64,000 nucleotides of DNA from Cloeon dipterum (taxonomy: Eukaryota; Arthropoda; Insecta; Ephemeroptera; Baetidae). Position numbers and translations under genes: made by a program. Numbering within the stretch: position 1 is the stretch's first letter; each line of letters starts with the position of its first letter. Below, piece after piece: positions 5,545-64,000 of this stretch. The DNA lies in NCBI RefSeq assembly GCF_949628265.1, contig NC_088787.1, positions 31,980,844 through 32,044,843 of the forward strand, written 5' to 3'. The notes under the pieces are model-generated. The model was not told the origin of the DNA and searched no databases. It saw only the letters and a list, made by a program, of their open reading frames with translations.

Positions 5545-6235
5545 GTCTTACCCATTCAAAAATGTTTTCAATCATACAATGTTCAGAGCAGGAAAGTGTC
5601 AAATTTTCAATTTCCAGGTAAAAAAGTACAAAAAATCGCGATAATTTAAAAATTTCCACTCGGGATGAAATTATGGCCAATAGGGGTTGAGAATTCAAGG
5701 GAGAGAACCCCCAAAAACCATTCAGCTTACCAGAGGAAGTCAAACGGTGTGCAGTTTTTGCATTTGTGACCCTTAGGACCCGAGATTTGGCAATCACAAC
5801 ATTTGCAAAAATTAAAAAATCATGTTTTTTTTAATTTAATATATTGAATTTTTTGATAACGAAGCCGGAAAACACTTTAAAATTTTTACACAACTTCACT
5901 CGTGCCCTGAGACCATTTCCGGATTTTTAAAGTCTATAATAGTGCTTGTTTTTAAAATCGCAAAAACACCAGTAAATTGTCGAAAATGACCCGTGATGAC
6001 CCGTGACCTTAACCAATAACCTCACATTTGGGGATCATTCGATCGGGCTTGACAAGACGAGTTCAACGCACACCTTGACTATTAAATTGTGCCAACTCAT
6101 AATTAGTTATTGCCAAAAATGTCCAATAAAACCCGCAAAAATGATCTATATTATATTATGATTTAATTGTGAATTTTGTCTGATTAACTCGACACCGCCA
6201 AAACCATCCTGCAACCCATGATTTTTGCTCTATTA
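5545..6235 (+). repeat. Dispersed repeat R1, copy A (longest)
   Basis: About 690 bp that recurs in diverged form at 32.2, 34.9, 36.4 (inverted) and 38.0 kb. Landmarks in order: GCGTCTTACCCATT, ATGGCCAATAGGGGTTGA, CCCCCAAAAACCATTCAGC, TTTTTGCATTTGTGACCC, GATTTGGCAATCACAACAT, TGAAGCCGGAAAACAC-like block, GTTCAACGCACACCTT, AATAAAACCCGCAAAAATG, GACACCGCCAAAACCATCC. No protein-coding potential is seen, so it is probably a non-autonomous transposable element. Its right end overlaps the 3' end of TAZ gene A. Confidence 0.75.
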
Positions 6236-7097
6236 ATGTTATTTCGTTAGTTTGTAAAAAAATGTAACTAAAAAACAAACGTGCATTGAGAGTATCGTGT
6301 TTGGCCCCTTGACGAGTGTTGTTGTGAGGCAGCTGCACTTCCTGGTGCTTCTTGCCTTGGAACGCGCCAGCGGCGGACGGCGTGGCCGACATGTCCTGCT
6401 GCTCTGTCAGTTTCTGCTTGACCGTCGAGCACAAGGGCACAGGACAATTGGTTTCCTGGCAATGCTTAGCGTGGTAGCAACACAGGCTTACAAACTTCTT
6501 GCACAAGAGGCAGATTTTGCTTGTGCAGATCTTGGAATGCAGCACCATTTTCTTCATCGTCTGGCATTCCGTCAGTAAGCACTGCGGGTCTCTACAGTGG
6601 CAAGCGTGCACCAGAAACAGCACGCAGCGCTGAGCGGTCTGTTTCTTAGCCTCCTAAAATATTGATTTGATTTTTTTTTTTAGAAATTTAGCGATTAAAC
6701 ATGGAAAATATGACATCTCACTGAATTTAACATGGCTATTTTACCGATAGATTGGTACCTTTCCCTCGCAATCAGTCATTGTACAATAAACAAATATTTT
6801 TAAGATAAATTGGTATTCAAAATTAAATTTATTATTACGCTGCCTTTTATTAAAAAAAACATTATATATACATAGTAAATTTAAAAAAAGATGAAGAAAT
6901 AATTAAAACCAAAATTTTTGTCTGCCAGAAAGGGCAAACAAAAAAAATTGGTCCACAAATTGTTTAGCGCTAAAGATACTTAATTGTTTTATAATATTTA
7001 CCATGTCTAATGTTTCATCCTTTAACAAAGCCGATTTTGCTTCAGCCTCAGCAGTCACACTACTTTTGGCGGCACCTCGAGGCCCTCGACGCATCAT
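6156..7097 (-). CDS. TAZ-type zinc-finger protein (gene A)
   Basis: Two exons, 7097-7002 and 6653-6156, joined in phase 0 (GACATG|GTAAAT ... TTTTAG|GAGGCT), total 197 aa. After a short Ala/Glu-rich leader the second exon encodes a full TAZ2-like domain: LVHACHC....C....C, HSKIC....CLLC, CCYHAKHCQETNCPVPLC, then a Q/K-rich helix end. The CCYHAKHCQE.NCPVP.C block matches CBP/p300 almost residue for residue. In CBP the TAZ2 domain docks transcription-factor activation domains; this protein has nothing else from CBP. The last 26 or so residues (6156-6235) are read from dispersed repeat R1 and look non-ancestral, so the true mRNA could end or splice earlier. No AATAAA lies just downstream, leaving open a transcript shared with gene B. 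Family confidence is high, 3' structure low. Confidence 0.72.
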
Positions 7098-8351: not shown

Positions 8352-8968
8352 ATGGTGAAAATGCTGTCGTCTCACATATTGATCCTGACATTGGGAGCCT
8401 CCGTGGTGCCCTTGGTGGACGCTGGCCTCTTTTACGACCTGTCCGGCGGCAGTGCCGGTCTGCTGAGCCCGTGCTCCATGCACAGTCTCACTGGCGTCTT
8501 CGTGGAGGAGCGCGCCTCCCTCTACGAGCCGGACACGGACGGACTGGTGCTCGTGTCCAAGTACACGGATGACTTGGGCTGCTTGCAGACGCCAGAGTTC
8601 GTTCAGGTGCATCGCAACTTCACCTTCAGGGTGCGTGCTTTCCTGCCGAGACCAGTCGAGGTGCTCAATCCGGTGCCTATTTTCTACGCCTACCTCTGGA
8701 ACGAGCAGGAAGGGTTGATTCCCCTCGCCTACCACATGGGTCCAACCGCCGATGGCTGGGTTGAGTGGCAACAACAGGTGCCTCACTACCTGCACTACCC
8801 ACAAATGTTTAAGGTTAAAATTGATTGATCCGCATGGATGTTGTAATGTTGTTGCTCTCCTTTTTTAAAAAATTTCAGGTTGAAATTAGGTCTGATTTGT
8901 ACACTGCCAGTTACGTCGCAATCCGCTGGTTTGGTCTCTCTGACGAACAACTGCCACCGTTAATTTAG
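8352..8968 (+). CDS. Secreted AIRWF-family protein 1
   Basis: Two exons, 8352-8813 and 8879-8968 (TTTAAG|GTTAAA ... TTTCAG|GTTGAA, phase 0), 183 aa. The ATG at 8352 or 8361 both give a signal peptide (hydrophobic ILILTLGASVVPLV, cut near residue 24). The mature chain starts GLFYDL, has only two cysteines (about 41 and 77, probably one disulfide), one N-glycosylation site (NFT), a conserved PVPIFYAYLWNE block, and ends SYVAIRWFGLSDEQLPP. I do not recognise the family. Size, the FYD start and a Y-V-A-I-R-W-F last strand recall MAM-type or other beta-sandwich domains, but the usual MAM cysteines are absent, so this is inference. First of four paralogues, closest to the one at 9756. Confidence 0.8.
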
Positions 8969-9755
8969 TCACGAGGGAAGAGCTTTGTGTTGAAGTAAAG
9001 CTTACCTGAAAATTGAGGATAATGCTAAAATAGTCATAAATATTTGATAAAAATGTGTTTAAAGTCTGCATAATTGTCAATCAATAACTGTCTCCCTCTA
9101 CTCTGTTAACTGTAAAGCCACGATTTATTAAATTTCACAATTTAGGGACTTTTTCCTCAATATTCGCACGACAAGAGGGATCAAAATCAATATAAATTAT
9201 GTAAAATCCGAAATTTAATTTCCCTCGGTTCAGAGTTCAAATTTGTTGCTAAATTAAAAAAAACTAAACTCAATGAACTACTAATAATTGCTATAGTCAA
9301 GCACGGATATTGTTCTTATTAATTGGCCTGTAGAGCTCTACTTTAAAAAGAAACTTAGTTGTTTCTGACGTGCCATTATTTTAACGCTGTATTGAATCTA
9401 AGAAAAAAACACCGACATGCCACATCATTTTGTGATAAATCGCTTTTCGGGAAATACCTTTTACTGTTTATTCCTGATTTCCTGTTACGCTAGATTATAT
9501 TACATTTAATATTTTATAATAACACTTGAAATGTGTGCTACAACAGCGACTTCGTTATAATTAAAAATAAATTTCATTGATTAAAAATCAAATGAAAAAG
9601 AAAAAAATAAATCATTGTCGCTCAAGAAATACGACTGTCTATGTCTAGTAGGAAAACCCCAACATGATATTAAAATGGTTTTTCTTATCTAATCGCATAT
9701 CTAACAATCTTTTAGTCGAATATCGAGTCAACTTACAATTAGGAACACAATTGAA
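8969..9755. other. Intergenic between AIRWF genes 1 and 2
   Basis: AT-rich, no ORF of interest. It includes the 3' UTR of gene 1 and the promoter of gene 2. Nothing else stands out. Confidence 0.5.
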
Positions 9756-10354
9756 ATGTCTTCAAACGTTGAGGTTAGCATTTTCCTTCTCTTGCTGGGA
9801 GCTATCATCGCTCCTTCGGTAGCGACCGGCGTGTTTTTTGACCTGTCGAGCGGCAACCCTGGTCTCGAGACGCCATGCAGCAGGTACAATTTCAGCAGTG
9901 CCTTCTTTGAGCAAGAAGCCAGCGTTTTCGACCCTGCCACCTCGGGACTAATGCTGGTTTCGGCGAACCTTGGCACTGGGTGCCTCGAGACGCCTCAGTT
10001 CGTCGAGGTGCACAAGAACTACACCTTCATGGTGAGGACGTTCTTGCCGAAACCTCGTGAGATTGCCTACCCGGTGCCCATATTCTACGCTTACTTGTGG
10101 AATGAGAAGGAAGGGCTGATCCCGTTGACGTATCACATGGGGCCTGGTGCGGACGGATGGGTCGAGTGGCAGGAGGAAGTGCCTTACTACCTCGAATATC
10201 CGCAGATGTTCAAGGTATTCAAAACATAAGTTCTCATTATAAATTAATCTAATTTTTGTAATTTTAGATCGTTATTTTGTCGGAATTGTTCACTGCTAAG
10301 TACGTCGCAGTGCGTTGGTTCGGCCTTTCCGATGAACCCGTGCCGCTTGTGTGA
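9756..10354 (+). CDS. Secreted AIRWF-family protein 2
   Basis: Two exons, 9756-10214 and 10268-10354 (TTCAAG|GTATTC ... TTTTAG|ATCGTT, phase 0), 181 aa. Signal peptide MSSNVEVSIFLLLLGAIIAP..., mature start GVFFDL. Closely related to the gene at 8352: shared PVPIFYAYLWNE, EGLIPL.YHMGP, DGWVEWQ and YVA(I/V)RWFGLSDE blocks, the same two cysteines (TPCS, GCLETP) and the same intron. N-glycosylation candidates NFS and NYT. A polyadenylation signal AATAAA is at 10391-10396. Function unknown; predicted soluble and extracellular. Confidence 0.82.
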
Positions 10355-10907
10355 ATTGAAATCTGCTACATCTTTGGGTTCAAATAATGAAATAAAAAAA
10401 TATTACGATTTTCCCTCCCGTCTATATTTTGGTTTCAATTTAAAATGTAAGATTGCTATTATTTGTCTCAAGAAATATCAAGCGGGCTCATTGTTTCGCC
10501 GCTTTATGTAGAATCACGCGTTGATTAGATTATAAGAGTTGCACATCGCACGCAGTGATCGATTTAGGATCAAAAAAGGTCACGATATTGCTTTGTCTCC
10601 TGGAATTATTTTTTACTTTTGCGGATAAAAATCACGACTTGCTACAGTTTCCGATTGGTGCGATTATTTATTTATTTTTTTGTCATTGATTCAAAATAAG
10701 AAAATTTATACACAACACTTTTAATTTACAATATTACTACTTGAATTAATTTTTGAGTCGATGCACAATGCACGCAATGGTGCGGTCAGCATCATTCAGC
10801 GGACAATAGGGGAAGCCGAGGTTGCACGAGTTGGCATCTGATTAGATTATCAGAGTTGTTCACTGCCGTTGCGCGGACCTTGGTGGTCACATTTCGAGCT
10901 GAGAAGA
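10355..10907. other. Intergenic with repeated promoter-like motif
   Basis: Holds the 3' end of AIRWF gene 2. GATTAGATTAT(A/C)AGAGTTG occurs twice, near 10524 and 10843, each followed by CAC-rich sequence; the second lies just before the protease-homologue start. The first copy carries TATAAG and a CAGTG about 25 nt later, so it may be an alternative or relic promoter. Confidence 0.4.
10843..10870 (+). promoter_or_regulatory. Putative GATA-type promoter element of SPH1
   Basis: GATTAGATTATCAG contains an inverted GATA motif (CTGATAA), followed by TTGTTCACTGC, an Inr-like TCACTG. The SPH2 promoter has GTGATAAGATTAG and CTCACTGCGC near 12301-12322. Shared GATA plus TCACTGC points to common control; insect fat-body and haemocyte genes are often GATA-driven. 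Confidence 0.35.
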
Positions 10908-12004
10908 ATGAGGCGTAGCATTTTACTCACTCTCTTGGCGATTTTTGCGGGAATACAACAGTCGCAGGGTGGCCTCGTTTCGTCGCTTGACCAACTTTTT
11001 TTAGAAACTAGTGAAAATGAGAAAATTGAAATCATCGACCATCCGTATCAGGCGAGTTGTTTTTTTTATCGCTTTGCACACGAGGCTATATATAATTTTC
11101 AATTTTAGGTGTCGATCCACTATAGTTTTTACGGACATATCTGTGGTGGAGCAATCCTATCAGAAAGATGGGTCGTGACTGCAGCGCGTTGCGTTTGGCA
11201 GTGAGACTTATGAGTGTAATTTACACTGCTTAACACAATTAATCCAAATAACAGAAAATCAGTGGGACGGTTCATCGTAATGGCTGGCTCAGTTGCACTA
11301 GACGATAGCACAAACAGTACGTTGAATCTAGTCGATAGAATTGTAATACATCCGGAATTTGACGGATCACGGCTGCCCGAGAGGGACATCGCCCTGATTA
11401 GGGTAAAAATTAATTGTAGTTTAATTCGATAAAATCCAATCAATATTTTCATTTTCAGTTAGCGAACAGCTTAATTTTCGATAGCAGGATCAATGCCATA
11501 GCCATTCCTGAGCAGGGCTACACACCTGAAAGGGTTTTGGGGTGCACAATGGCTGGATGGGGAGCTGAAAGCTACCTCGGCGATATCCCACTGGACATGA
11601 GAGTGCAGAAATTGCGCACACACGATTTTGCCCTGTGCAACAACTCGTACAGCATTTTAAGTGTGTCTCTGCCTGAAGAAACTCAATGTGCTATAAGACC
11701 TATTCTGGGAACCTCTGTTCCCTGCACGGTATTTCATTTAAAGGTGTGTAAATATTTTAAAATTAATTGTATGTTTTGAAAGGGTGAATGGGGAGGCCCC
11801 CTTGTTTGCACGAGGGACGCTGCTGAAGGCCCAGTGCTGCTTGGTCTCGCTTCAGGAGATCCAATTCCTTGCGGATTCACAATTTTCAATATTGAGCTAT
11901 TTTCCCTTCCTTACATGTTCACCAGAATCAGCAGCTTTACGGACTGGATTTATCAGACAATACAAGAGCCTGCTGAGGCTGAGGCATCAATGTTTCAAAA
12001 ATGA
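10908..12004 (+). CDS. Secreted serine-protease homologue 1 (catalytically dead)
   Basis: Five exons: 10908-11051, 11109-11200, 11255-11402, 11459-11728 and 11783-12004; 291 aa. Signal peptide MRRSILLTLLAIFAG..., then a short pro-region leading straight into DHPYQVSI, and a chymotrypsin-fold domain (HICGGAIL, MAGWGAE, TRISSFTDWI). The catalytic triad is broken: TAAHC is TAARC (His to Arg75), DIAL is kept (Asp123), and GDSGGP is GEWGGP (Ser to Trp221). The R/IVGG activation site is missing, so no zymogen cleavage is expected. Such proteins act in insect haemolymph as cofactors or binding proteins, e.g. in melanisation; the role here is inferred. Intron 1 has a GC donor (CAG|GCGAGT). Tandem paralogue of the gene at 12376 with all intron phases conserved. 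Confidence 0.9.
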
Positions 12005-12375
12005 AAACAATTAATTCATCAAACCAGAGATATTATATATGGTGGGATCACAGTCAATGTCTTAATTTAATAATTATTGCAAAGTGAGGAATGTGTGTGC
12101 TCATATTATATAAAAAAGTAGGACATAAAAAACTTATTATTGTTTCTAAATTAAACCTTACCATATCTCATCTAATTATTTTTCACCATCAGTGATTTTT
12201 TAAATCAACGGAAAGTGTGTTTTGCAATAATGTGCTAACTACCAAACTAATTTTGCAAGTGAGGTAATAAACACGCGGTTTGCTAGAGGAAGAATCTGAT
12301 AGTGATAAGATTAGCTCACTGCGCGGTGCGTCATGATTGCACACTTGCGATCATATTGGTTTGAGAGCAAGAAAA
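12005..12375. other. Intergenic between the two protease homologues
   Basis: 3' UTR of SPH1 and promoter of SPH2. A GATAAG motif lies at about 12304-12309 and CTCACTGCGCGG just after it. No ORF. Confidence 0.45.
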
Positions 12376-13448
12376 ATGAAACACGCGATTTTATTTTGTC
12401 TCTTGGCATTTTTTGCTGAAAAATCGCAGGGGGTCTGTGAGATTCCATTTGTGGAGAATCTTTACTCTAATAATTTCGGTAGTGAAAGGCTTGCAATCAG
12501 CGACTATCCTTATCAAGTGAGTAATAATTGAGACCTGAACGTGACCTGAAAAATTCTAATTTTCGTGCTAGGTGTCGATACATTATAGTTTCTACGGACA
12601 CATATGCGGAGGAGCGATTCTCTCTGAAAGATGGATCGTGACCTCCGCGCGATGCGTTTGGCAGTAAGGTTTGATTTCCGTCAAGGAGTTACGTAATTAA
12701 ATCTAAATTAACAAACAGAAAATCTGTCGAAGAGTTCGTCATAATGGCTGGCTCAGTGGCATTAGATGATACAAGCAGTCGAACCCTTGCATGGCCGGAA
12801 AGGATAGAAATTCATCCCGAGTATGACGGCTCGAGACTTCCTGAGAAGGATATTGCTCTATTAAAGGTATAACTCAAATATTCGTCAGAAAAATTGATAA
12901 AATTTGTGATTTCAGTTGAATGCAAGTTTGCCATTCAGTGACAGCATCAACGCAATAGCAATTCCTGAGCAGGATTCGTTGCTAGGAACGGGTGTCCCGT
13001 GCAAAATGGCTGGTTGGGGTGCCGAGGAGCACAATGGGGACATTCCTCTCGACCTGAGACTACTCAGATTCGTCACTCTTGACTTTGAGACGTGCCAAAA
13101 TGTGAGCAGCGTGTTATTCAGTCTGCCAGAAGAAACCATGTGTGCCATAGCAACAGATTTGACGGGAGATGCAGTTCCTTGCAGTGTAATTCATTTGATA
13201 ATTTAATAATAATTAAATATCAAACTGAATTTAATTTTCAGGGTGAGTGGGGCAGTCCTCTTACACGGGCCACTGGCGGTGGGCAGCAGTTGATTGGCCT
13301 CGCCTCTCGTGATCCAATCTCCTGTGCATTTGATCACGTAATGGTTAGAAATTGTTCGCTCTCTCTTCTCAGCATGTTTACCAGAGTCAGCAACTTTTCT
13401 GACTGGATCGAAACGACAATAAATGAGCCTGCAACCTTGTTGGCTTGA
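12376..13448 (+). CDS. Secreted serine-protease homologue 2 (catalytically dead)
   Basis: Five exons: 12376-12516, 12572-12663, 12719-12866, 12916-13185 and 13242-13448; 285 aa. The start ATG opens a signal peptide (MKHAILFCLLAFFAEKSQG). Exons and phases match SPH1 exactly. The triad reads TSARC (His to Arg74), DIALLK (Asp122 kept) and GEWGSP (Ser to Trp220), so both paralogues lost the same two catalytic residues in the same way. The activation motif is again replaced by a sequence ending DYPYQVSI. Intron 1 here has a normal GT donor (CAA|GTGAGT), unlike SPH1. Predicted secreted, non-proteolytic, with a binding or regulatory role. Confidence 0.9.
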
Positions 13449-13645
13449 TTTAAATGTTTGAATTCTGATTCCATACCGACCCCAAATCAAAACTCTTGTC
13501 GCTAGCCAAATGCTGGGGCATGTATACACTGTGTTGCGTAGCAGAAAGGACAAAAAAATTAATAGAACTGACATCTGTTTCGTGACGCATCACATTTATT
13601 AGGCTGGACAAAAAAATTCTTCTTAAGAGGAGCAGTTGCTCCAAA

Positions 13646-15903
13646 ATGATACCTCACACTGGTTGTTTCCCAACGTTGGTGGTCATTCTGGCGTTTTTGA
13701 CCGTGTTTGATGGACACGCAGAGGTTCAAAACAAGTCGAGTGGACCGAGGGAAGACTCGGCCGGCGTGAGAAACGGGAGCCAAGTGAGGAGTCCGTTGTC
13801 AGTAAGTGCTCATACTGTAAAAACGCAAGAGAAATCTTTGTTCAAATTTTTTTGCGGCGTAAAAAAGTCTGTGAAACAATTCAACTAGAGGAAGAGAGAA
13901 CATCGGACAAAATTTTAAGTTCCACGTATCTTTCAATCCAAAATTTGGTTTTTTTCGCTTCCAAAGATGAAAATTTGCCTATGGAATTAATGAATGATTC
14001 GCTAAAACAGTGATAAGATTTCCATAAACTTTACATTTTTTTTAATCTGCTCAATGAGACGACAAATAATATGTTTGGATTTGCCTAGACACCAAATCAT
14101 CCCCTCAATGATTGCAGATAGAATTAGGGTCCAGTGAAGGCCCGCAGGAGGACTGCCTTCGCACGAGTCGCACGATGATTGGCGTGTTGTCCAGCCTGCA
14201 ACGCCTGAGCGACCGGCTGACGGCCATCCAGACGCTGAGCCAGGAGCAGTCCCGCCGATTCGAGACCCTGGACTACCGGCTGACCAGATTGGAGGTGCAG
14301 GAGCAGGAGCGGGCCGAGTCCCTGCGCAAGTCGGTGTCCGAGGTGTCCAAGAACATGCAACAGGCCACCTGGCAGAATGGACAAATCGTGTCCACCTTGG
14401 AGACCATCAGACAGGGGCAGGACGAGCACAAACACGCGATTTCGGTGCTGGCCGCCAACCCACCGGGTGAATAGTGTAATTTGCTGCTATGGAAGAATCA
14501 AATTTTTGTCCTTTAAAGAGACCAAAGTCAGCGTCAAGGGAGGAGGAGAGATTCTGCACAAGATCCAATCTTTGTCCAACGCCGTCCAGGGCACCAAGGC
14601 CACGATTGCGTCGATCAATGAGAAATCTGCGACTGTAGGAAAAGATTTAGCGGCCTTGACTAATTTGACAAGGTATTACAACATTTAAAAATCTAACAAT
14701 TGATCTAAAATTCACGCCTCTAGAAATCTACAGAGTGCGCAATCTAATCTGCTAACCAGACAAGCCTTCGCCTCGTCAATCATTGAACTGAAGCAAGTTA
14801 ATCCAGGTTCAATTCCCCAAAAAGCCCAGTCAGGTAACGGCCGTAATTTAATGCAAAATTGGAAAAGCCAAATAAATATACGCAAATCTAGGTGAACCTT
14901 TGCCGAAAGACTGCGATGCTATTATGAAAGAGGGGAAATTCACGAAGTCTGGGATCTATAAAATCCAACCAAATCGCATGTTAGGACCATTTTTCGTTTT
15001 TTGCGAGCTCGCTGACCGTGGTGGTGGATGGACGGTGGGTGCGATTAGTACATATTTCCCAATATATAATGGTCCTCCATTATCAGGTGATTCAGAACAG
15101 ATACGAAGGCGCCGTTAACTTTTACAAGGACTGGCTGGATTACAAATATGGATTTGGAAACATTGGCGGCGAGTTCTGGCTCGGTTTGGAGAAAATGCAT
15201 CTGTTAACAACAGATAAGGTGATGATCCAACATGCACTTTTTACAATTACCGCAATTAAAAAAATAATAAACTCATATCCTTAGGTTAACGAACTAGTAA
15301 TTGAATTGGAGGATTTCGATCACCAAAAGGTGTATGCGTATTACTCGGCTTTCGCGGTAGGCTCTGAGGTGGAAGGGTACTCGTTAACTTTCCTCGCTGG
15401 TTATGATGGAGACGCAGGCAAGAAAACTAAAATAATATTGTAGAAAAAAAAAAACAAAAAAATGACCGATTCTTTCTAGGGGACTCTCTCAGCTATCACG
15501 CCGGCATGAAATTCTCGACAAGAGATTTTGATAACGACCAGTGGCCTGACGGAAACTGTGCTACGACCCACAGTGGTGCCTGGTGGTACAATGGATGCGA
15601 TACGAGGTCTTGAATTTTAGATCGAATTATCATTGGCTCTATCGTAAAAATTCCAGCAATCTCAATGGAATGTATTTAAACGGCGATTTGCCTGAGATCC
15701 ACGAGTACAAGGGTATGTACTGGTACGACTGGCATGGACCAACTTACTCTCTTATGAGCACAAGAATGATGATCAGACCAAGAACAGACGCGGCGGATGG
15801 GTTGGATTCACAAAAGAAAAACTCCACAACGAGCAACAATAATTCTAAAACGAAATTGACCGACAGGCAGAAGGCCGAGCCTGGTTTAAAAAGAGCTGGA
15901 TAA
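13646..15903 (+). CDS. Secreted coiled-coil fibrinogen-related protein (FREP / techylectin-like)
   Basis: Nine exons: 13646-13801, 14118-14466, 14519-14672, 14724-14833, 14892-15034, 15087-15218, 15285-15417, 15480-15606 and 15657-15903; 516 aa. Signal peptide ([14 protein letters not shown]), a heptad-rich coiled coil at about residues 70-240 ([17 protein letters not shown]..., many E/Q/R), then a fibrinogen C-terminal domain at about 264-476: DC..I...[53 protein letters not shown] (calcium loop), [20 protein letters not shown] 40-residue basic, Asn/Ser-rich tail follows. FREPs are oligomeric lectins of arthropod haemolymph that bind acetylated sugars or microbes; the role is inferred. Intron 7 has a GC donor (GCAG|GCAAGA). 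AATAAA at 15973-15978. Confidence 0.92.
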
Positions 15904-16328
15904 AATTGCCAAAATGATTAAAGCGTTGTAGAGGATATTGCAATATTTGAAGTACGCAGTTTTTGGAAGAGAAATAAATAAAAATAATCACGTCATTGAA
16001 CGTCATTAATTTATATATCTGACGTCAACCTGCGCAATTCTTGACTCAAAAAAAAACAAAAATCCTTGGAATGAAGATCAATTTGATGAATTTATGATAT
16101 TGTTTTTGTCTTGATGATTTGTTCTTCATAGCACGTTATCCCATTATGTCTACATTATGCGGGAATCGACGTCGGAATGACGATAAAGACGTTTAAAGAA
16201 CTACGTCCTTTAATTGTAAGAGATAAAAGTAATAAAATTAAGTAAACATCGATCAGTTTTGCAATCTATAAATAATAAAGCGTTTGATCACGATTGCCAA
16301 GTTGCATTTTGGGGCTCAAGCGAGACAC
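15904..16328. other. Intergenic, FREP to AIRWF gene 3
   Basis: 3' UTR of the FREP gene and a probable promoter with TATAAATA at 16267-16274, about 55 nt before the next start codon. Nothing else seen. Confidence 0.45.
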
Positions 16329-17206
16329 ATGGATCATTTTTCGCTCTTCGTTGCTGTAGCAGCAATTTTCGCCGCAACAGATGTGGTGCAAGGGACGCTG
16401 TACGACATGCAAGAAGGCATACCTCAATGGATAGTGACGCCTTGCAGAACAGGAAATAGGCTTGGAGCATGGATCGAAGACGCCGCCGCAAATTACCAGA
16501 TGACTGAAGGTGGGAAGGTGGTGGTCTCACAGAAGAACAAGGAATCTTGCATGCGAGCCCCTGCTCAAGTGATTCAGCAAGACTATAAACTAACGATCAG
16601 AATATTTGTCTCGCGAGAGGGTTATAATCCTGGCAGGAAAGATGTCCTCGTAGTTAGATTCGTGGAGGAAGGAAACGGCATTGTGCATGACGTTGACATC
16701 AACCAAGATTTGTTTGTCATCGGCTGGCAAACAGTAACGTTTAACCACCCAAGTTTGAGTTTTGGGTCTAAAGCCTATTCGGTGAGTTTTCTCTAATTTG
16801 CTGGCGTCGATATAAAAAAATCATATTTCAGGCTGAAGTTGCGTCAGTGAATACAGGACAGGCCTACACTGCAATAAGATGGTTCAGTATTGGCAGTGAA
16901 GGCCTATCGCCTACCACTACTACGATTGCCACTGAATCGACAACTTGGGAATATCCCACGACCGAAATTGAAACTACTACCACTGCTGAAGACACCACCG
17001 TGGATCCTGAAACAACCTCCTGGACGAATCCCTCGACTGTTAATGCAACACAACCTACAGAAGCCACCACTCTGTTTGAGGAAGAAACAACAAGAGATTC
17101 GTCAGATTTTCCCACAACACCAACTCCATTGACCTCTACCACAACGGATGCTACAACAACTAGAAGGGTGGGCTGTCGTAGTAGCTGGCATCGCAAGAAA
17201 AATTAA
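16329..17206 (+). CDS. Secreted AIRWF-family protein 3 with Thr-rich mucin-like tail
   Basis: Two exons, 16329-16781 and 16832-17206 (TATTCG|GTGAGT ... TTTCAG|GCTGAA, phase 0), 275 aa. Signal peptide MDHFSLFVAVAAIFAAT..., mature start TLYDMQEGIP. The domain keeps the two family cysteines (TPCR, SCMRAP) and ends YTAIRWFSI. It is followed at about 176-262 by a Thr/Pro/Glu-rich, mucin-like stretch (PTTTTIATEST, TTTTAEDTT), probably O-glycosylated, and a short basic end (RRVGCRSSWHRKKN). No membrane segment is in frame, but another frame over the last codons reads a short hydrophobic run (GWAVVVAGIA), which may be the remnant of an anchor. Pairs with the paralogue at 18774. Extracellular; function unknown. 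Confidence 0.8.
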
Positions 17207-18773
17207 ATAAATATATGCTAATGCTTGAGCCTCTCATTGACAGAATTAATTTAAGTACATTATTCTCGTTGGAATTCAACTACCATCAAAGGTTGAGAGA
17301 TTGTATTATCCATTTTTTGCCTACACCAGACAATATTGTAGCAAATAAAATTGAAAGGTATTTTTAGAGATAAAAAGTGATATACATACTTGCTTGTTCA
17401 ATTCAATCCAGTTTTATTCCTCCAAATAAGTCATGACACCAATATTTAAATTGATTTTAGCTTAATATCAATCATGTGCAATGAATTAGTCTTTTGTGCC
17501 ATTTGATTTTTCTGGCAAATAATGTCAATAAAATTACGAAGAACATTGAATGATAATGATAATATGTAAAAAGTTGTAACACATGCCAATATCGCCAATG
17601 AGTGCAACGTCAAAATCAAACGTTTGAATTGAAGGAAATAATCTGAATAAAAGTAAAAAAGAAAAGCCATAAACGTTTTTATTTAATTAGTAGAGTGAAG
17701 AGCTTCTATAGTAGCTATCTCCAGAGGATTATGAGCCCTGCTGATAAGGCAGAAGACATGAAACCCAGTCCGTAAAATTCACACGGCAGGAACAGGAAGT
17801 AAACTTGCTGCAAGTTTAAAAGAATCAAGAGTCAATTAAATAATTGGACACCTAATCTTTAGAAAAAAAAACTTGTAAAAGTGATTGTAAAGAATTCATT
17901 TAAAACAATCCTCGTTACCTATAGATTAACTAAGGCATATCATGGCTTATATAAAGTCAATATAAAAACATCGAAAAAGCTTAAATTTGAGGACTTTATA
18001 AGTATTATGAAACGTTAAGTGTCCAAACAAAATCAAGAGTAAAAAAGAGGAAGAAATAGTAAAATTTTACGAACTATTGTTTTATATGCAATAAAACTAG
18101 GATGGGGATTAGCGAACAGTTTGCTGAGCAGTAAAAAAGACGTAACATAAATATCATCACGCAATATCATACATAGCGTCTCGCAACAATACGGCTAGCA
18201 TTTAGGAATGTATATTGCCCACTATAAAAAAATGAAATTCGTTTATAGAGGCGATTGGACTGTCTTGAACTTGAACGAGAAAAGGTTGAAGAGTGTGAAG
18301 TGAGTCCTCGATCATTTAATTACTTCAATCAACTGTATGTCAAATTAAAACTGCAATAATTGTATGATGTCATGCTTTTAAAAATTTCATTCTAAATTCT
18401 TCTCATTCCTTTCAATAACAAAACTTATCTTACAGGTGACGAGATACAGGAAGAAATATTAATGAACAATTGCTTATGATAAGCTAATCCTAAGTCCCGG
18501 ATTCCTACAAATGCAGCGCAATCTATGACGCCAAAGCGTGTTTTGATTCCATAGAAGAAACTTCGCAGTTAAATTTTATTTCCTCAATCCACTCCACCGG
18601 GGCAATAGAAGAGAATATAGATCGAAGGAACGGGTTAGCGGATTTTTGTCGGAAAGTGCGTCACAAAATCATGAGATAAGAGTAATCCAAACAGAACAAA
18701 ACAAGATTCTTTGCCGGTATAAATTGTTTAGCATCAACCCCAAATCAGTCAGTCTTGGTTATCTCATTCAAAG
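17207..18773. other. Intergenic, AIRWF genes 3 and 4
   Basis: AT-rich. An exon-like minus-strand piece at about 17747-17818 (acceptor TTGCAG, hydrophobic codons, stop) has no partner exon that I could join and is not called. Otherwise only promoter elements at the right end. Confidence 0.45.
18718..18749 (+). promoter_or_regulatory. Core promoter of AIRWF gene 4 (TATA plus Inr)
   Basis: TATAAAT at 18718-18724 and TCAGT at 18745-18749. Taking the A of TCAGT as +1 puts TATA at -29, the textbook arthropod arrangement, with a 27-nt leader to the ATG at 18774. Confidence 0.6.
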
Positions 18774-19874
18774 ATGATGCTCCCACTTTTCATCGCAGCG
18801 GCTATCACAGTCGCAGGGACAGGTGCGCAACAGGGGGTTTTCTACGACATGCAGGCAGGAATCCCTTCAGGAATAGAAACCAAATGCGATGGAACCTCAT
18901 TCTTGGGCTCCTGGAGAGAAGACGAGGCAGCTAATCATCAGCTTACAGAAGGCGGTAAAGTGGCTGTTTCACAGAGAGGGGTGATCTCTTGTATGCGAGC
19001 CCCAGTCATGGAAATCCAAAGTGATTACAAGTTCACAATTCAGCTTTTCGTGTCAGAAAATGGGAACATAAATGCTAAGGATATGATACTACAAGTCTTC
19101 TTTGTTGAGGAAGGAACTTCAGTATTTAAAATGTTGACTATCTTTCGAAGCGACATAAAAACAGGCTGGCACAATATTACTAAGAACATGCCACCTAGAA
19201 TGGATTTTTCCAAAAACCATCAGGTAGGTACTTAGCATGATTCCGTCTACTTCATTTAAAAGCTGATTTTTGCCCAACAGATCGAAATTACGTCTTCCGA
19301 TTTGATCAACTATGTTGCAATTCGATGGTTTGGAATATCTAACGAGGAGCTTCCACCGCCAACAACGACCACTCCTGCTGCAGAACCAGAAACGTCCGTT
19401 AATACCACTCCTGCTGCAGAAACGTCCGTTGATACCACCTCAGAAGCAATCACTACCACAACTGCTGGTGAAGACCAATCGACATCCTCCCCTACTGAAC
19501 TGATTACAACAACGACTGTTCAAGCACAAACAGAGTTGTCGACCACGAGCAGAGAGCCCATCACGGATACAACTCCGAAACCCCCAGCGCAGGTGGTTTC
19601 GGTCTTTCCAGAGCTTTGGAGCACCCTCTTGGGAATTGCAATCGGAATCATAGCAATGTGCGTGCTCTTCTTCGTGGCGACCTGCTGTCGATTGTGCTTG
19701 TTCGGCAAGAGAACAGGTCGCCAAAGGATCGATTCAGGATTCAGACTGCCGAGGCTTCACGTTGTTTCCACGCCAAGCCAGAAAAGTATTACAGGGTCAA
19801 TTGACACACACTCGTCGGCCAGCACCGCTGACCCGTTTTGGGTGAAAAGCAAGGCTTGGTCGCACATCCCGTAA
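18774..19874 (+). CDS. Membrane-anchored AIRWF-family protein 4 with Thr-rich stalk
   Basis: Two exons, 18774-19223 and 19281-19874 (CATCAG|GTAGGT ... AACAG|ATCGAA, phase 0), 347 aa. Signal peptide (LFIAAAITVAGTGAQ), mature start GVFYDMQAGIP; family domain to about residue 170 with cysteines in TKCDG and SCMRAP, one NIT site, and the ending NYVAIRWFGISNEELPP. Residues about 177-250 are a Thr/Ser/Pro-rich stalk with a duplicated PAAE.ETSV.TT unit. A transmembrane helix follows at about 262-285 (LLGIAIGIIAMCVLFFVATC), then CCRLC (possible palmitoylation) and a 60-residue basic, Ser-rich cytoplasmic tail. Type I surface protein, perhaps a receptor or adhesion molecule. Converges on Elp1 with about 150 bp between stops. 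Confidence 0.82.
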
Positions 19875-23000: not shown

Positions 23001-26000
23001 GATAATGGCCTGCGTACATGCTTTCTGTCACATCAGTCTCCCTGCAAACATGAAAAATCAGCAATTTTCAAACCAAAACATTGAGCAAATTACATCAAAT
23101 CAGTCAGGAACTGGCACAACCAGGTTGGATCTTTGATTTGCAGCACAAAATCCTTAATGTTTTCAAGGAACAGAGCTGGATTGTGGTCGTAGATTAGGTT
23201 GAGATTGATTCTTTGCTTTCTCATGGTGTCAAAAGCTCTAAAGTACTTCTTGCTGCAAGAGAGAAAAATTATGCATTTGAATATTTCATTTGTAGTGTTC
23301 TCCTACTTGTCCAACAGGTGCTTAATGATGAAAATGGCCAATGATCTTGGTTGGATGACCTCAAGGTTGCCTCTGGGCATTTGCAGCACCACTCTGGTGT
23401 CGCAGGGCACGGCTGCGACAAGTACAGCTCCGAATTCGGTCTGCCTTTCCGTTCCGTCAGGCCCTACTTTGCTTCTGTCCAACAAGGACTCTGCAACCAA
23501 TCAATTTTGTACAAGGAGAGCCAAGATGGTTGTTTTATTGATTTTTTACCGATTCCGTCTTTGGTTTTTGGAATGCAGAGCAATTTGTTTTCAGAAGTGG
23601 TGATCAAGATGAAGTTGGAGTGGATGAAATAGGATGAACAGTTCTTCATGACATCGACATTGTCCACGTAGAGAATTCCAAAAAGGTTTCGTCCAATAAC
23701 ATGAACATTGTCATCGACTTCGAAAACTTCAAACTGAAAATTATGTGTTTAGCCAGATAAACGAGGAAACTGTACTTTTTGGCGGATTAATAAATTCTTG
23801 ATGCGAACCACGTTCAGTGGTGGAAAATTTTGATTTTAGCCGTTTTTGGAGATTTTAATTGAAAACTTGATTCAAAAGCGCATTGCTCAATTGAGAACAA
23901 AATTTTGGTTTGTGGTCTCTGTTCAACGAGCCTGGAAAATAAAGAAGTTTCAGGCTTTGCAAGGTTTTAATGGTTTATCGTATTGTAGAGCAAAATATTA
24001 CACATAATCTGAAAGCTGATGAAATTTGCTATTTAAAACATGTTAAAAATTTCTTTGCATCATTTATTGTTTCTAAAAAAAACTGCATTGATTTAAAATT
24101 TATTAATTATAAAATTTTAGATTTTTTTTCTTAGTGACTTAAATGGAGCTACATGGCCTGGTAGTAAGCTCAGGGATTTAACTAAAATTATTTTGAGCCA
24201 CTAGCCAATTTCCCGGCAAGAGTCAAAATATTAGGGAGTTTCCCAGAAGATAAAAAATGAGCCACCGATCGATTCACCTTTGATAGATTCGCCGATTGAA
24301 TGAAAAGTGGATTCACAATGAAACATTTTCCCAGTCAGGGTTTTGCAAACTGCATCGAGTCGAAAAAGTAAATCCTAAGATTATCCTTATGTTAGTTTAC
24401 CTGTACGCATGTTGAAAACGATTTGAACTGCATGTGAAACCTTGTGGTGAAGTCCACAACTGAGTCATCATTGCACGTCCACAGTTTCAAAACGTCTTGG
24501 GCCAGGTTTACAACCACTTCCTTTGCACTTGGCAGAAGACACAGTCCCTTGACCGCACTCTCGACTAAAATTGCTGATCTGTAATGATTTACTAGGTGAA
24601 TATCCAAATTATAAGTAATTATCAAATGACTTACACCACTGCAATTGTTTCGCTTTCGGAATCCAACTCCAATTTGAGCAAATAACTCTTTCGCTTCTCA
24701 GCAGGAAGAACGCAAACCAGCAAGTTCTCAGCTATCCACAGCCAATGGTGCAGACTGGAAGGGATTTGTCTGTATTTCAACTGCTCGTATTTTCCCCAGT
24801 CTAATTTGTGGAAGCCAGTTGGTACTAATTTGGTTCCAGAATTCACAAAGCCTTGCTCCTCAGGGGAAAACGGCGCAACAGATATGCTTGCAGTCGAAGA
24901 AAGATGCCCTGAATGGACCACTGTTAAGAAATATTCCTCATTCTGAGCTTAACAAAATACCATTTAGAGTGAACTTGGCCACTTCATTCTCGCTTGTAAC
25001 AACACAAACGTCGTCATTTAGAAAGGCCACACACGAGACGGGATTCGGCACTTTTAAGAAATAGCTGCACATCGGTGGAGGAACAACCGCCTCTCTCAGG
25101 TTTGTCATTTTAACGTTGGCTGAAAATGCAACTTCATTATTGAGCTAAAGATAAAATAAAAAACTACGCCACCTCCATCAATTACGGCAACACTGCAAAG
25201 GTCAATGGGAGACTTTCCAGTACTGTGATCTGTTTCCCACTTCCAAACGTACTCGACGTACACTGGCCCCTCTTGGATGACATGCAAACTGCAATTTCAG
25301 ATTAGAATCCAGTGAATAACTAGAATATATCTACTATACTTGTAAATCAGCTCTTTATCCCAAGAGAAGTTCAGCAAATTCTGCTCTGCGGAAAAGTTAA
25401 GGCTTTGCTTCAGTTGCCAGTGGTAATTAGTTGCTGCCCACAGCTGCAGGCACGACTTCTTGCTCTCTCTGCACACGCACCAAATGGCCAAAATGCTCGA
25501 GTCCAGATTCCAACGCAACTCTTTCACCTGATGAGAAAATTTAAATTTCCTTGCTTCAATCGACATGGACAAACTTACTTGAACCTCATTGGGTTGGAAA
25601 GGCAGCGCAAATTCGCCATGACGGAGGCCATTCTTCTCAAAGAAGGCGACAATATGCTTGTTGGGCATCGTGACCGTTGAAGCAAAGACAGATCCTGACA
25701 GTTTCCAGTCCAGACACTGCTCCAGACCGACAGTTGGCTCACTGGTATACTGTAGCACGCCTTCTCGGTTGAAAATTCGGATTTGACGTGCACCTTCAAG
25801 GGCCAAAATAAATTTTTTGTTCTAGCTCGGGTTAGAATTGGGTCTTCACCAGAGTGTTTAATGAAAGACACAGCAAACAAGGCGCCGTCACCTCTCCACC
25901 GGATTCTGGGCAGTTTGTCGTCGAGCTCATTAGCTTGCGTCTCGTCAACTTGCAGTTTTGCCTGAGCAGCTGCTTTTCCCGCCGTTCCATGAAACTGGGT

Positions 26001-38265: not shown

Positions 38266-40179
38266 ATTGTCAAAATTGGTAAAAGTTCAGTCTGGCTCGG
38301 CGAGAAGAATCCAAAGTAAACCATGCGTTTTATAAATTGCGCTATATATACGTGAAGATGAACTACTGATGCCTCAAAGTTTTCCAAAATTGTCCAGTAA
38401 TGATGCTTTTTCTAGTAAAGTGAAATTTCGCATAGTTTTCCCGAGGCATTTTGTCTTAATTACTTTAAAGTTTTGTGTCGGATGAAAAAACCAGCTTTAT
38501 TGAAAAACCAATAATTTCAACTTAACTGCATGCGTTGCTATCTCAAACTTGACAATTTTTCACCGCCCCTGTGAATTATTATTAACTTAATTATCGTATA
38601 ATGAGCAAGTGATGCGTAACAACAAGTGAAACAATCGGCACGATTTATTTTCTCGCTTGCAATAACGCGTACAACGGCATGCCGCGAGTTTTTCTTTTAA
38701 TTATTCTCACAGCAGCCTTGTGCAAATAAATTGTGATTTTCTCTCGCCCCGCCGCCGCCGCTCGTAAATTCTTTATTTACTGTCGCCTCTGTGTTTCAAG
38801 CGCACGTATATATTCCAAAAGGGGATATATATGTGGTTTAATGCGCACGTATAGTGCAAAGGTGGAGGAGTAATTACAGTTAATGATCGAGATTGTCACG
38901 CCTAGAAAAAATAGTTTTACCTGCGGTTTCTCAAGAGTTAATAATATGCAGCAGATAATGCAGTCATTACATTTCTGTCTAGAAAAAACTTTAGGAAAAA
39001 ATCTAAGAATTTAGTTTTGACATGCGCTTTTCCTTAATTTTGATGCTGCTAGATGTGTTAAGCATTGGAGCTACGGAACGAGTACCTTTTACGAGTTTGA
39101 TTGATTTGACACTATGGAAACATTCATCTCGTGACTCGTATTTTTCCCCTGTCACTTCCCCGAATTCTTTGTTAACTTTTGACAAAAGCAGCATATTATA
39201 TAAGAATATACCCACAATTTAAAAATGTTTAGCTTGAGTTGTAAACAGATTGTACAATATTGTGTAGTATTTATTTTTATTTTTAAAGCAATAATATATT
39301 TTAAACGGACTTCTCCCAGACATTTTTTTCATTTAACACAAAATGTAATAGATGCTTTATCATAGAGGGCTTTGCACAAGCTCTCATAAAGTCATAAACG
39401 AATTTTCTACAAATCATTTCAAATTGGTCGTAGAACAAAGGTTCGGACACCGTTTAACTCTTCTCGTCAAGTTGAACATCTTTTCTGTTGGCCTTAAATT
39501 CATTGAAATTCACTAAAATCGAATTTTCGAAAAGACACAAAGTTGACATTGAAAATCTTGAATTTTTTACATTTTGATCCATCTTGTAGAACGCAAAAAT
39601 GGTTTGGAAATTCATAATGGCGTTTGGGCTTTATATTTTATTAAAAAAGACCAAACAACTTGAGCTTTTTCAGATATCACCCCAATTTTCCGGCAAATGC
39701 TAAATAAAATTATCCGGGTTTCACTATTTAGATCTAGGATAAATTTATTAACTTCTATAACTTCCTAAACTGCGTAACAAGATATATTTTATGTCTTGTC
39801 TCAAGCCTCCAAAGCAAATACGAGCAGTCACCGATGATATCCACGCATTTTATCTTGTATATTTATGTTGTACACTATTAGTGTTTATTAAAGTTTTTCA
39901 TTACGAAAACTTGGTTGTTTCGACTCCTCTAAACACTGCCGGAAACACCGTTAAACATAACAGGATGGTGATCAAACAAAATTGAAAAATACTAAAAATT
40001 TCATGATATATTATCAAATCTCTTGCAGTTACAAAACCAAAAACGGAGGCTTTAATTTCATCAGTTTCAGGCGGGGGGAAATTAAAGCAATCCCTTCACG
40101 TAGATCAAGCCGGTTTTTGCTGCGAGGCAGATTGGCCAGATTCAGATTGGCAAAAAATAATTAGCGCGCCAATGGGTTG
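38266..40179. other. Intergenic upstream of Dad
   Basis: AT-rich with a short GC run at 38745-38765 (GCCGCCGCCG). No gene seen. Confidence 0.35.
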
Positions 40180-40685
40180 GTTGCGGGAGAGGCAGAGAGG
40201 TGTCGCGGCAGGCGGGGCAGATTGGCTGGCGCAGACGAGTTCATTTATTTAAAATGTAGACGTGCATGTGTGCGGAGAGTGGCGGCCGCCAAGCCGAAGA
40301 CTGCGAAGAGCCGGCGCCGCTCGCACGGCGCGAGAGGGGGGAGGGGCGACTGGCTGGCGGCAGCGGCGGCGGCGGATAGAGCCTGGCATCGGCCAGCCGT
40401 GCCTCTGCCTGCTTCAGTCGCAGTGGAAACCGAGTGAAGTGCAGTCGCGTTGTCGTGAGAGTCGCGAGTCGTGAGAGTGGATCGCCGGACGCATTGACGC
40501 ACGCACGCACGGAAGGGGAGCAAGCGAGATGCGTGCGTCGACGCCGCCGTCGCTGCCGCCGCGCCGGCAGCGCTGAGTCCGGAACCACGGCCGCCGTGCG
40601 ACGATGCCTTCGCGCAGCAGCACGTGAGCCGCCGTCGTCCGATGGTGGCTTGCTGCGGCGTTCGCTCTGGCGTTTGTTCACCTCC
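40180..40685 (+). promoter_or_regulatory. GC-rich promoter / 5' UTR region of Dad
   Basis: Composition changes from AT-rich to strongly GC- and CpG-rich at about 40.18 kb and stays so into the Dad coding exon. The frame is open upstream of the chosen ATG from 40434 but reads low-complexity Arg/Ala sequence, so it is treated as leader. Confidence 0.5.
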
Positions 40686-43600
40686 ATGTTCCGCCGCAAA
40701 CGCGAGCCCCTGACGCAACGCCTACTCAAGGCCGTGCGCGAGAAGGCCGCCGCCGCCGACGCCGCCGCCGTTGACGCTGCGTCGCTGCACACGCACGTGC
40801 TGCAGCAGCTGAGTGAGCAGCATCTGGAGCTGCTGCTGCTGGCCGTCGAACGCGATGGCGCCCGCACCTGCTGCGTGCCCGCCAGACGCGGCGCCACCAC
40901 CAGCGTCGACGCGGCCTCCTCTACCTACTGTTGCTGCGCGACGCCCGGCGACGACGAGTCGCCGCCGGCGTCTGGCGCCAGCAGGACGGCTGAAGAAAAG
41001 CCGTACCAATCACCTCACGTGTTGTGTTGCCAAGCGTTCCGCTGGCCGGAACTCCAAGACACCACGCAGCTCAGGCGTCTGCCCCAGTGCACCACCCTTG
41101 AATGCTGCAACCCTTTCCACTACAGCAAAGTTTGCGGACCAGGTCAGTCTCGCGGCGGGTGCATGGCCACGGCCAAATGGGTCAACGACCAACACACGTT
41201 CCCAGGGTTCGCGCCTCCACCTTATTCTCTGTCTTTGGCTCTAGCAATAAGTCAGGGTGGCGTGCTCGTGTCGCGCCACTCTCGTCGGGGTCACCAAATT
41301 AACGAGTAGCAGTAAAAAAAACTAAGTATTAAACGGTTTGTCAATGATTTTCTGCTCGATTTTGGTTCCTTTCATCGCGATCTATCCAACGGAGCGAGTT
41401 TGGAGGAAAAATCCCCTTAATTGTGATACAAATCGTGATTTCCGTAAAGAAAAGGGGCGAGGCGTATTCATTGAACTCTATAAAAAATCCCAAAAACCAG
41501 AGGCATGTTGAAAGATCTAAGCAAAAGGTTACACCGTGACTAATCATCAAAACATCAGTATTTTTTGTCTGCTCTTTCCCTTATAAATAATATGTGTTTA
41601 CCTGGCGTCGTCAGGTCAGGCACCCTCCTGAAAAAGGATAATAGCCTGCCCCTAAAAGTGTCGCAGCATGCGTTCTCGGACAAAGGCGCAAAAAAACCAC
41701 TCGATAATTGATTCGAAATTACTTTGGTCGGCTGTAATAACGTCATCGCCATAAAAACGACACATTATTCAGATAAAATTGTAATTACGTGTCATTGGAG
41801 GGAATAAGTCGGCGCATTTGCATGTTGCCGTCCGCGTCCGCACACGAACGTGTGTGTGCGCGCATAAAAAACAAATTTATAAACACGTTCGAGTCGCGCA
41901 TTTGATCTTGAGCGCATATGACATCATGCGAGGAGCATTTTAGGTTAGGGAAGTGATTGTCTGGCCAATCACCTGCTTTTAATATCACTCTTGGCGCCAT
42001 GCATTCATTCGCGCTGGCTGGCTGGCTAGCTGACTGGCTGACTTCAGCTCGGCGGCTGGGCTGGCGGCGGCGGCGGCAGCTTTTACACTGGACAGACGAC
42101 GCGCTGCTTTTTATTAGTGTCGCACCTGCTGGCTATCGAAAGGCGAATCAAGTACGCCGCCGACCGACACACAGCCTGAGAAATGAGCCCGATTTGCATC
42201 GCTTTACCCGCGACCCAAACTCACTCAATTTAGCCGAAAAAACAGGCCTACGCGGCTTTTGCAAATTCCCCCAATTTCTTCTAGACATTTTTGTAGAATA
42301 ACTTATTGGGGATAAATTTCGTATTTCATTTTGCTTTCTATTTGGCAGTAAAGTTAAATTCATTTAGAGTGAGAAATTATTCGTGAAAACCGAACCCTGG
42401 ACCTTTCTGCTGAGAAATTCAGTCAAGTCAGTTGAATGTTTAAAATTGCAGCCTAGTATTTCCTAAATTCAGAATTTAACCTAATCAGGTTTGGCATCCC
42501 TCTTTCATATGTTAATTTGTTGGCTATTTTTTTTTTGCTGAATTTTTTGATTTGAATAAGCGCTGTGAGAAAAGTCGCCGAACTCGTGTCTTAAATAATG
42601 CCTTTGTCTGCTACCGATGTGTGTATGGTGTCTGCTTGTGGCTCAAGAGTTAATATATTATTATTGCAGAAACACATCAAGAGTTGATTTAACTGCGATT
42701 GAAAACACCGAAATCGGAGACGGCACGAAAAACCCGATTTGGGTATTTTCACTCGCGGTTAATTAGGTTTAAATCAAGTTGTAATGTGATTCTTTGATTC
42801 GAAATCGATAGAATGTTGATGTAAGTGAGAACAAACATCTAAATATAGACTAATTAATTAGCTGCAACTTGACACCGAACAATTGGCTGCTCGTGCATCA
42901 GGTAGCGGAACATATAAGTTGAGGGGGTTAAATCCGTTCGGTGACGTTTTGAGAGCGAATATCTCTGTTTAGTTTATTTAATTTATTTGTATTCATTCAA
43001 CGAAACAGAAAGTGAAGCTCCTTATTTCCTATTACCGTGCATTTACAAATCAAGTCACAAAATTAAATGGAACAAAAGAAGAAAAAGAAATACTCTTTTC
43101 ATTTAGGATATTAATTGGTAGGAAAGCGTTATGAAAAAAATATTTCTTGCAGAAGAAATCGTTAAGGATGTGCAACCCTGTAATAAAAATTGATTGGCTC
43201 ATGCGACATAGTACTACATTTTTGGTGAAATGCTCGGCCAAACACAAAACAAAAGTTTCTCATTCTGCTTCGCCCTCAATTAATTTGGCTTACATTTAAA
43301 GATCTCTGAAGAGCACTCGCTTCTTCCTCTGTTGCACAAAGAAAAATGTGCGTTCTATTTTGGCTCAAGACTTCAAAACGCGTGAACCTCTTGAGCTGGT
43401 GCTAATCGGTCAAACTGATGCCTCGGCTGCGGCTGCTCACATCCGCTGCTTGCTGTCGGATCAGCGCGCAGAAAATGCAGGCGCCGGTAGAACAATGGTC
43501 TGTTGGCCGCTGCTGCGGGCTTTGCATTCGGCCGTGTTTATCTTGCAGTGTCGCGCCAATTAAGATAACACTCTGGCGTCAAGGATAGCATAATTGATTT

Positions 43601-43689
43601 AATGCACGTGTCAGCGCAAAAGATACCGAGGCAAAAATAAAACCGCTACCGCCGCCGCCGCCGTCGCCGCCAAGACGACAAAACAACCG

Positions 43690-43759
<70 letters not shown>

Positions 43760-46700: not shown

Positions 46701-48004
46701 TTATTAGGGTCATTGCCTCGCATCATCTGATGATTTACAGCCTTGTGCTCATGTTGCTCTTTTGTGTTACAGAGTCACCACCCCCGCCTTACCGCCGCTA
46801 CCCTTACGAGAAGCTAAGACCTGAAGGTGAGAGACAGTGAATGGGCGATGTTTTCATTCATGCAAGTTTTTATGGGGGATTGGGTTGTTGACTTTTAAGT
46901 GTGTGGCACTCACCCGTCAACTGCACGAGACAGGGGTTTGTGCCGACAGCACCTGCAACAAGAGGTGTACTATGCCATGCCCAATCCGACAAACTGGCAA
47001 GCACAATTGGGTAAACTCTATATCGATATAAATCTTTTTTGAGAGGTCACACATCAGAGACGGTTTCATTCCAATCCAATAATACGCCCCCTAATGGCAA
47101 TTCACACACAAAATAAACATACAGAAATCATGATTGTTTTATAAAATCAATGAATTTGGAAGAATCGTAAAACTTCTTGAGGTACACAAATTTCTTCAGA
47201 GCAGTCACGAATTTGCTCATAGCGTGGCTCAAGCCCCATTATTCTAAGTTGCAGCTCTTGAAAACGGAGTCTGCTGTGAAATCATCAATTTCTGGGGTGC
47301 GAAATACAAATCAGACGTGCAACGCGTGCTGTGCCCGTACACGTTAGGCGGGGTGTTTTTTTAAATAAACTTCCATGCCTCAAACAAATATTATTTTGAT
47401 AACACTGGAAGCTGGTTGTACCGCTCTAAAAGAGGTCTCGCGGATCGACTCGGATCCTAGTTGTATTTTTTGGCGAGTAACTAGGTTCGAAATCCATTGT
47501 GGTAAATCCTGAGGGTAGACTCGGGTCACAATAGATTAATGCACCTTGCCTACAATAACCGCGACAAACCATCAACACTTAAACACCTGTGAAAAGCGAC
47601 CGTCTCGCGGATCGACTCAGATCCCAGTTGTATTTTTTGGCGAGTGACTATAGGTTCCAAATCCATTGTGGCAAAACCTGAGGGTAGACTCGGGTCACAA
47701 AAGATTAAGACACCTTGCCTACAATAACCGCGACAAACCATCAACACTTGAACACCTGTGAAAAGCGACCGCTACCTGGGAGGTGACCCATATAGACAGT
47801 GATAGAGATTATATATCCCCAACCCTTGCAGACAGGGTGCGTCCAGTTATTGCGTGGCCGGCATTGAGAGAAGGCCAGCTGACGGAGAAGGTGCGGCGGG
47901 CGCCTGTGTGTGCTCACTCGGCGTCCGGCAGTCGCTGTTACCTGGAGAGATTACCCGATTAGCGCGCACCTGGCGCGACGCCGCCGCCGTGTGTGTGCGT
48001 GCGT

Positions 48005-48091
<87 letters not shown>

Positions 48092-63900: not shown

Positions 63901-64000
63901 CTCTTGGGTTGTCTCTTTAGAACTTGTTGAATCCAAAGCGCTATGGATTGTTTCTAATTTGGAAAGTGCAAAATCTTCAACAACTTCTTGCAACATATTT
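60951..64000 (-). CDS. futsch: Futsch / MAP1 microtubule-associated protein, C-terminal part (partial)
   Basis: Last two exons: a giant exon entering from the right edge to 61275 (over 900 codons) and a final exon 61120-60951, joined at GATTTAG|GTGAGT ... TTACAG|AAGTAA. The long exon is acidic, Ser/Pro/Glu/Lys-rich and full of SPSP(A/E)PS motifs, likely proline-directed kinase sites, as in the fly Futsch repeat region. The end is the conserved MAP1 light-chain domain: PMYFDLTYVPHHG, FFKNVRARYYVFSG, DALLEGK..W, then VTIIPTYDTDTLGQWV and the terminal YRLEF. Futsch binds and stabilises microtubules in axons and at neuromuscular synapses. The N-terminal MAP1 domain lies outside the window. Confidence 0.93.

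Follow-up and report, generated by a model that had tools for sequence, protein, structure and literature searches.

A small family of secreted and membrane-anchored proteins with one predicted MAM-like domain in the insect Cloeon dipterum

A 64-kb stretch of Cloeon dipterum contig NC_088787.1 (the window, within which coordinates are counted unless stated otherwise) carries four genes, g1 to g4, which by their sequences are members of a small family, not catalogued so far, whose proteins are either secreted or membrane-anchored and have one folded domain. The explanation that we prefer, and to which we give an even chance, is that their products are extracellular recognition proteins of a small insect family, in which a MAM-like head is either raised on a mucin stalk or present in soluble paralogues. 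The members and the parts discussed below are as follows (+ and - give the strand).

8352..8968, +: g1, exons 8352-8813 and 8879-8968, 183 aa, single-domain, secreted
9756..10354, +: g2, exons 9756-10214 and 10268-10354, 181 aa, single-domain, secreted
16329..17206, +: g3, exons 16329-16781 and 16832-17206, 275 aa, domain plus Thr-rich tail, without membrane segment
16910..17203, +: Thr-rich tail of g3, Thr at 35/98 residues
18774..19874, +: g4, exons 18774-19223 and 19281-19874, 347 aa, membrane-anchored
18834..19355, +: domain of g4, from the mature start through the AIRWFGISNEELP strand and including intron 19224-19280; predicted jelly roll by homology to the g5 model
19356..19604, +: Ser/Thr-rich stalk of g4, read from the sequence, its composition taken over the whole post-domain part
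19626..19682, +: transmembrane segment of g4, LLGIAIGIIAMCVLFFVAT, mean hydropathy 2.72, with a homologous segment in B2 and B3
19683..19871, +: presumed cytoplasmic tail of g4, with the motif LPRLxVxS that is common to the tails of g4, B2 and B3
L020 3709-4410, contig C2, about 185 kb upstream: g5, from the genome search
C2:10.162-10.173 Mb, -, about 22 Mb from the window genes on the same contig: B1, B2 and B3, from the genome search

The preliminary description of this DNA had proposed four related two-exon genes with signal peptides, and the gene models bear this out: all four translations are free of internal stops, and the introns of g1, g2, g3 and g4 (65, 53, 50 and 57 bp) are all GT-AG and in phase 0. 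The first exon encodes a hydrophobic, signal-peptide-like N-terminus and the greater part of the domain of about 155 residues, and the second opens 11-12 residues ahead of the first residue of VAIRWF, closer than the 15-18 residues given before. The intron ahead of this last strand lies at an identical position in all eight family members. The mature start that had been described, G(L/V)F(Y/F)D(L/M), holds except in g3, which begins with GTLYDM. Two cysteines are found in the domain of each of the eight members, as had been reported for the four window genes, with a spacing of 35-36 residues in g1-g4 instead of the 36-40 stated and of 36-41 in the other four; outside the domain, the C-terminal tail of g3 holds one further cysteine, and four lie in or after the membrane segment of g4. 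Chance falls far short of explaining the relatedness of g1-g4: identity over the first exon is 61% for g1 and g2 (E 1e-60), g3 and g4 share 47% (E 5.6e-34), and the matches of g2 to g4 (E 7.2e-6 and 1.7e-5) join the two pairs.

The census of the family comes from three single-protein searches over the 190-Mb, ten-contig genome, in which only the best candidates were scored, so that the eight genes are a lower bound. These searches gave 9, 9 and 16 matches, and all 34 fall within eight genes, every one on contig C2. The genome searches missed the second exon in both g2 and g3; these two exons came to light when the window and the fetched loci were scanned for motifs. In keeping with an insect source, the genome also gave five matches over the cut-off for the odorant-receptor family PF02949, which is restricted to insects, and one match for odorant-binding proteins (PF01395); an exact TTAGG 30-mer gave none. 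The B genes possess an additional phase-1 intron within the domain.

Stalk and anchor are evident in the sequences of three of the eight members, g4, B2 and B3, each of which has a stalk rich in Thr, then a strong hydrophobic segment and last a short tail. A search with the membrane segment and tail of B2 returned B2 itself, B3 (65%), g4 (40%, E 5.8e-7) and one further match at E 4.2, which we take for chance. In the post-domain part of B3, 338 of 771 residues are Thr; its stalk (L022 850-2786, C2:10.170-10.172 Mb) repeats an 18-bp unit about 108 times, each copy coding for a hexapeptide of the TTTEEP type, and this repeat is a candidate length polymorphism. At the other extreme, only 3, 2 and 17 residues follow the domain in g1, g2 and B1.

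The preliminary description could not match these proteins to a named family, and none was identified here by sequence. None of the eight domains gave a convincing Pfam match at E<=10, and none of the eight last exons, which encode stalk, membrane segment and tail, gave any at E<=0.01. Matches in NCBIfam (best E 0.057), in PHROGs (best E 0.073) and among PDB sequences, by single query or by profile (best E 0.06), were at chance level. A CBM53 match was rejected, as it covers only 26 residues of B2 alone (1/8 members) at E 0.0035, below the cut-off, and the other sub-threshold Pfam matches were dismissed as short and likewise below it; jelly-roll carbohydrate-binding modules such as CBM22, CBM16 and CBM27 show no sequence match to the family. 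In the literature searched, which covered few subscription papers, no description of such a family was found. A bacterial, viral or transferred origin was also rejected: five stretches of viral contigs and ten of genome contigs matched the pattern, and none was confirmed in either set.

For the fold, one good model is available, that of g5, and it predicts a ten-strand jelly roll spanning the whole domain. Its top structural matches are MAM domains, with about 145 residues aligned at about 3 A; further matches to a gingipain adhesin, calreticulin, lectin-like domains of insecticidal proteins and virus capsids were not used as evidence of function. A MAM-like beta-sandwich is probably the best reading of the fold, and to that extent the earlier suggestion of a MAM-like or lectin-like sandwich survives, whereas by sequence the family is not a MAM member. 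This leaves the question whether a MAM-domain gene was its ancestor, so that it would be a true though very divergent branch; this would be compatible with the preferred explanation, and we regard it as a real if lesser possibility. Besides the structural matches, an alignment by eye speaks for such a descent, as it sets VAIRWF at the position of MAM IAIDDV and the preceding QIEI at that of MAM QIVI. Several results weigh against a link to MAM. The Pfam model PF00629 matches none of the eight members at E<=10, and its 11 matches in the same genome all lie on C4 and C5, where it recovers ordinary MAM loci (the C4 locus also has an LDL-receptor A match), and none lies at the family loci. Aligned by hhalign with a profile of four PDB MAM sequences, the family profile reached Prob 0.3, and column shuffles scored as high in 40/200 local and 100/200 global runs (116/200 and 47/200 with the C-terminal half only). 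The PDB profile is shallow, but in leave-one-out controls each of the four sequences recovered the others with Prob 99.28-99.85, which shows that the profile works.

The comparison with MAM domains (PF00629; meprin, enteropeptidase, neuropilin-1) can be extended to single residues. The likeness is the jelly roll, predicted here, and differences are seen in the lack of a detectable sequence relation, in the cysteines and in the last strand. According to the available part of PMC5104691, the four cysteines of the NRP1 MAM domain pair into two intramolecular disulfides, and the meprin domain has five cysteines, in contrast to the two of the family domain; NRP1 binds Ca2+ through E651, D685, N691 and D796, with D796 as the acidic ligand of the last strand, and the whole site is not kept by every MAM domain, e.g., NRP2. 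In all eight family members the last strand reads A-[IVL]-R-W-F, with R-W at the place of the MAM Asp pair (DD), the strand being placed by eye. As a putative arrangement, the invariant Asp5 or Glu29 might pair with the invariant Arg145, replacing Ca2+.

The history of the family differs from the one first proposed, a local duplication with later gain of stalk and anchor. In a protein tree of the eight domains, g3/g4/g5 are split from B1-B3 plus g1/g2 with support 100/100, and g1 and g2 are united with 100/100; the other three of the five inner branches are unsupported. The tree was midpoint-rooted, with no outgroup, and were the root placed on the g1/g2 branch, the history of g1 and g2 would be undecided. 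By this tree the window cluster is made up of two deep lineages, the deepest split having anchored members on either side, and the anchor predates the cluster because the membrane segment and tail of g4 have homologues in B2 and B3, at a distance of about 22 Mb. Given the midpoint root, the simplest history would be an anchored ancestor from which stalk and anchor were lost repeatedly. The fast evolution that had been suggested is not shown either: pairwise dN/dS is about 0.14 for g1/g2 and about 0.28 for g4/g5, which indicates that on average the genes are under constraint. All 11 of 28 pairs with finite dS stay under about 0.55, and positive selection was therefore rejected, in a weak test, as the other 17 pairs are saturated at synonymous sites.

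The following genes lie between g2 and g3.

10908-12004 and 12376-13448, +: two tandem serine protease homologues
13646-15903, +: fibrinogen-C domain gene, following the protease homologues, with matches in 3/3 tested exon frames

The second protease homologue matches Trypsin over the cut-off (E 2.9e-7), and the first, which seems to have a GC-AG intron, below it (E 0.01). Read by eye, TAARC or TSARC replaces TAAHC, and GEWGGP or GEWGSP replaces GDSGGP (His57 to Arg, Ser195 to Trp); because the catalytic motifs are replaced, both look catalytically dead. When 90 residues of the second homologue were searched against the genome, the two matches were these two genes, and no other close copy was found. 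The fibrinogen-C gene has a Ser/Asn/Lys-rich tail, and its three fibrinogen pieces are preceded by a putative coiled-coil region. Serine protease homologues and fibrinogen-domain proteins often act in haemolymph defence, and these neighbours are the sole contextual pointer to immunity, a hint. Around g5, the plus strand of 8 kb holds only gag/Arc-like matches among the families scanned, one of them (L020 7480-7800, +; retrotransposon gag / Arc-like) lying downstream of g5, and a tandem repeat frame of GHFLVQR units (L021 8694-9167, -) stands immediately upstream of B1. Elsewhere in the window, an ELP1 beta-propeller match (25303-25821, -, E 3e-42) is probably followed downstream on the minus strand by the remainder of that gene. 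A TAZ zinc finger match (E 3.8e-10) lies in a frame at 6162-6653 (-), and an open frame of 915 aa at 61255-63999 (-) runs past the window end and has no Pfam match at E<=0.05. Positions 40001-52000 have a G+C content of 48-50%, compared with 36-42% in the other 4-kb blocks.

In the preferred explanation, each member would consist of a signal peptide and one MAM-like or CBM-like jelly-roll domain, which one probable disulfide would close. For g4, B2 and B3, the anchored members, the Thr-rich and presumably O-glycosylated stalk would raise this head from the cell surface, where the single membrane segment and the short conserved tail would hold the protein. The soluble g1, g2 and B1, and probably g3 and g5, would release the same head. 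We infer that the ligand of the head is a glycan or a protein, which the anchored members may capture at the cell surface; the soluble ones may serve as opsonins, decoys or co-factors. The family as a whole may have its role in defence or at an epithelial surface. By analogy, the layout would be that of the insect scavenger receptor class C (SR-C; Drosophila SR-CI, Spodoptera SR-C) cut down to one domain. The likeness lies in the MAM-type fold (predicted here), the Ser/Thr-rich stalk, the single membrane segment and the short tail; the family differs in having one domain only and several soluble paralogues. CCP, MAM and somatomedin B gave no Pfam match in the eight domains or the eight last exons, and the SR-C MAM domain has no sequence match to the family. 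The closest functional parallel is insect SR-C, which takes up a bacterial protein and binds it through its CCP and MAM domains, as stated in the portion of PMC6191154 available to us.

Alternatively, the proteins could be structural components of the glycocalyx or mucosa, whose Thr-rich stalks protect the epithelium of gut, gill or trachea and whose jelly roll only organises or cross-links this protective layer, so that each would be a mucin bearing an adhesive cap. We consider this doubtful. The repeats and the Thr content of B3 suit a mucin, and small secreted atypical mucins of Drosophila trap fungal spores, as far as the accessible text of PMC13373891 goes, but g1 and g2 are stalkless, which argues that the domain is useful by itself. 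These mucins, Sgf1 and Sgf2, resemble the family in being lineage-restricted, clustered, secreted and mucin-like, and are unlike it in fold, with a disordered N-terminus, a three-stranded beta C-terminus and 6-7 Cys (same source, same limit).

A reproductive role, as recognition proteins of sperm, egg or seminal fluid, appears improbable. Reproduction is another setting in which duplicated proteins, small and either secreted or anchored, are common, and a small, partly tandem family with soluble and anchored forms would fit this; the protease homologue and fibrinogen neighbours, by association only, suggest haemolymph over gonad. Still less probable is that g3 and g5 are decaying, truncated, non-functional relics that have lost the anchor. 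Both have a shorter Thr tract and end soon after it without a membrane segment, and the genome search with the membrane segment and tail of B2 found nothing near either gene. However, the frames of g3 and g5 are intact, both carry an identical TTTRRVGCRSSW near their ends, and dN/dS of g4/g5 is about 0.28.

A broader form of the recognition explanation, which we think rather unlikely, would see here a lineage-restricted insect recognition system built on a new MAM-fold domain, with membrane receptors on mucin stalks whose length varies through the 18-bp repeat, soluble heads as opsonins or decoys, and a fibrinogen lectin and catalytically dead proteases at the same locus. If the domain is merely a divergent adhesion domain, this would be an ordinary lineage-specific gene family. 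If the genes do encode extracellular recognition proteins, an unannotated family would join the short list of insect surface-recognition proteins, a MAM-type fold would persist below sequence detection with one head in soluble and anchored versions, and such families would escape surveys of immune genes that rely on Pfam domains.

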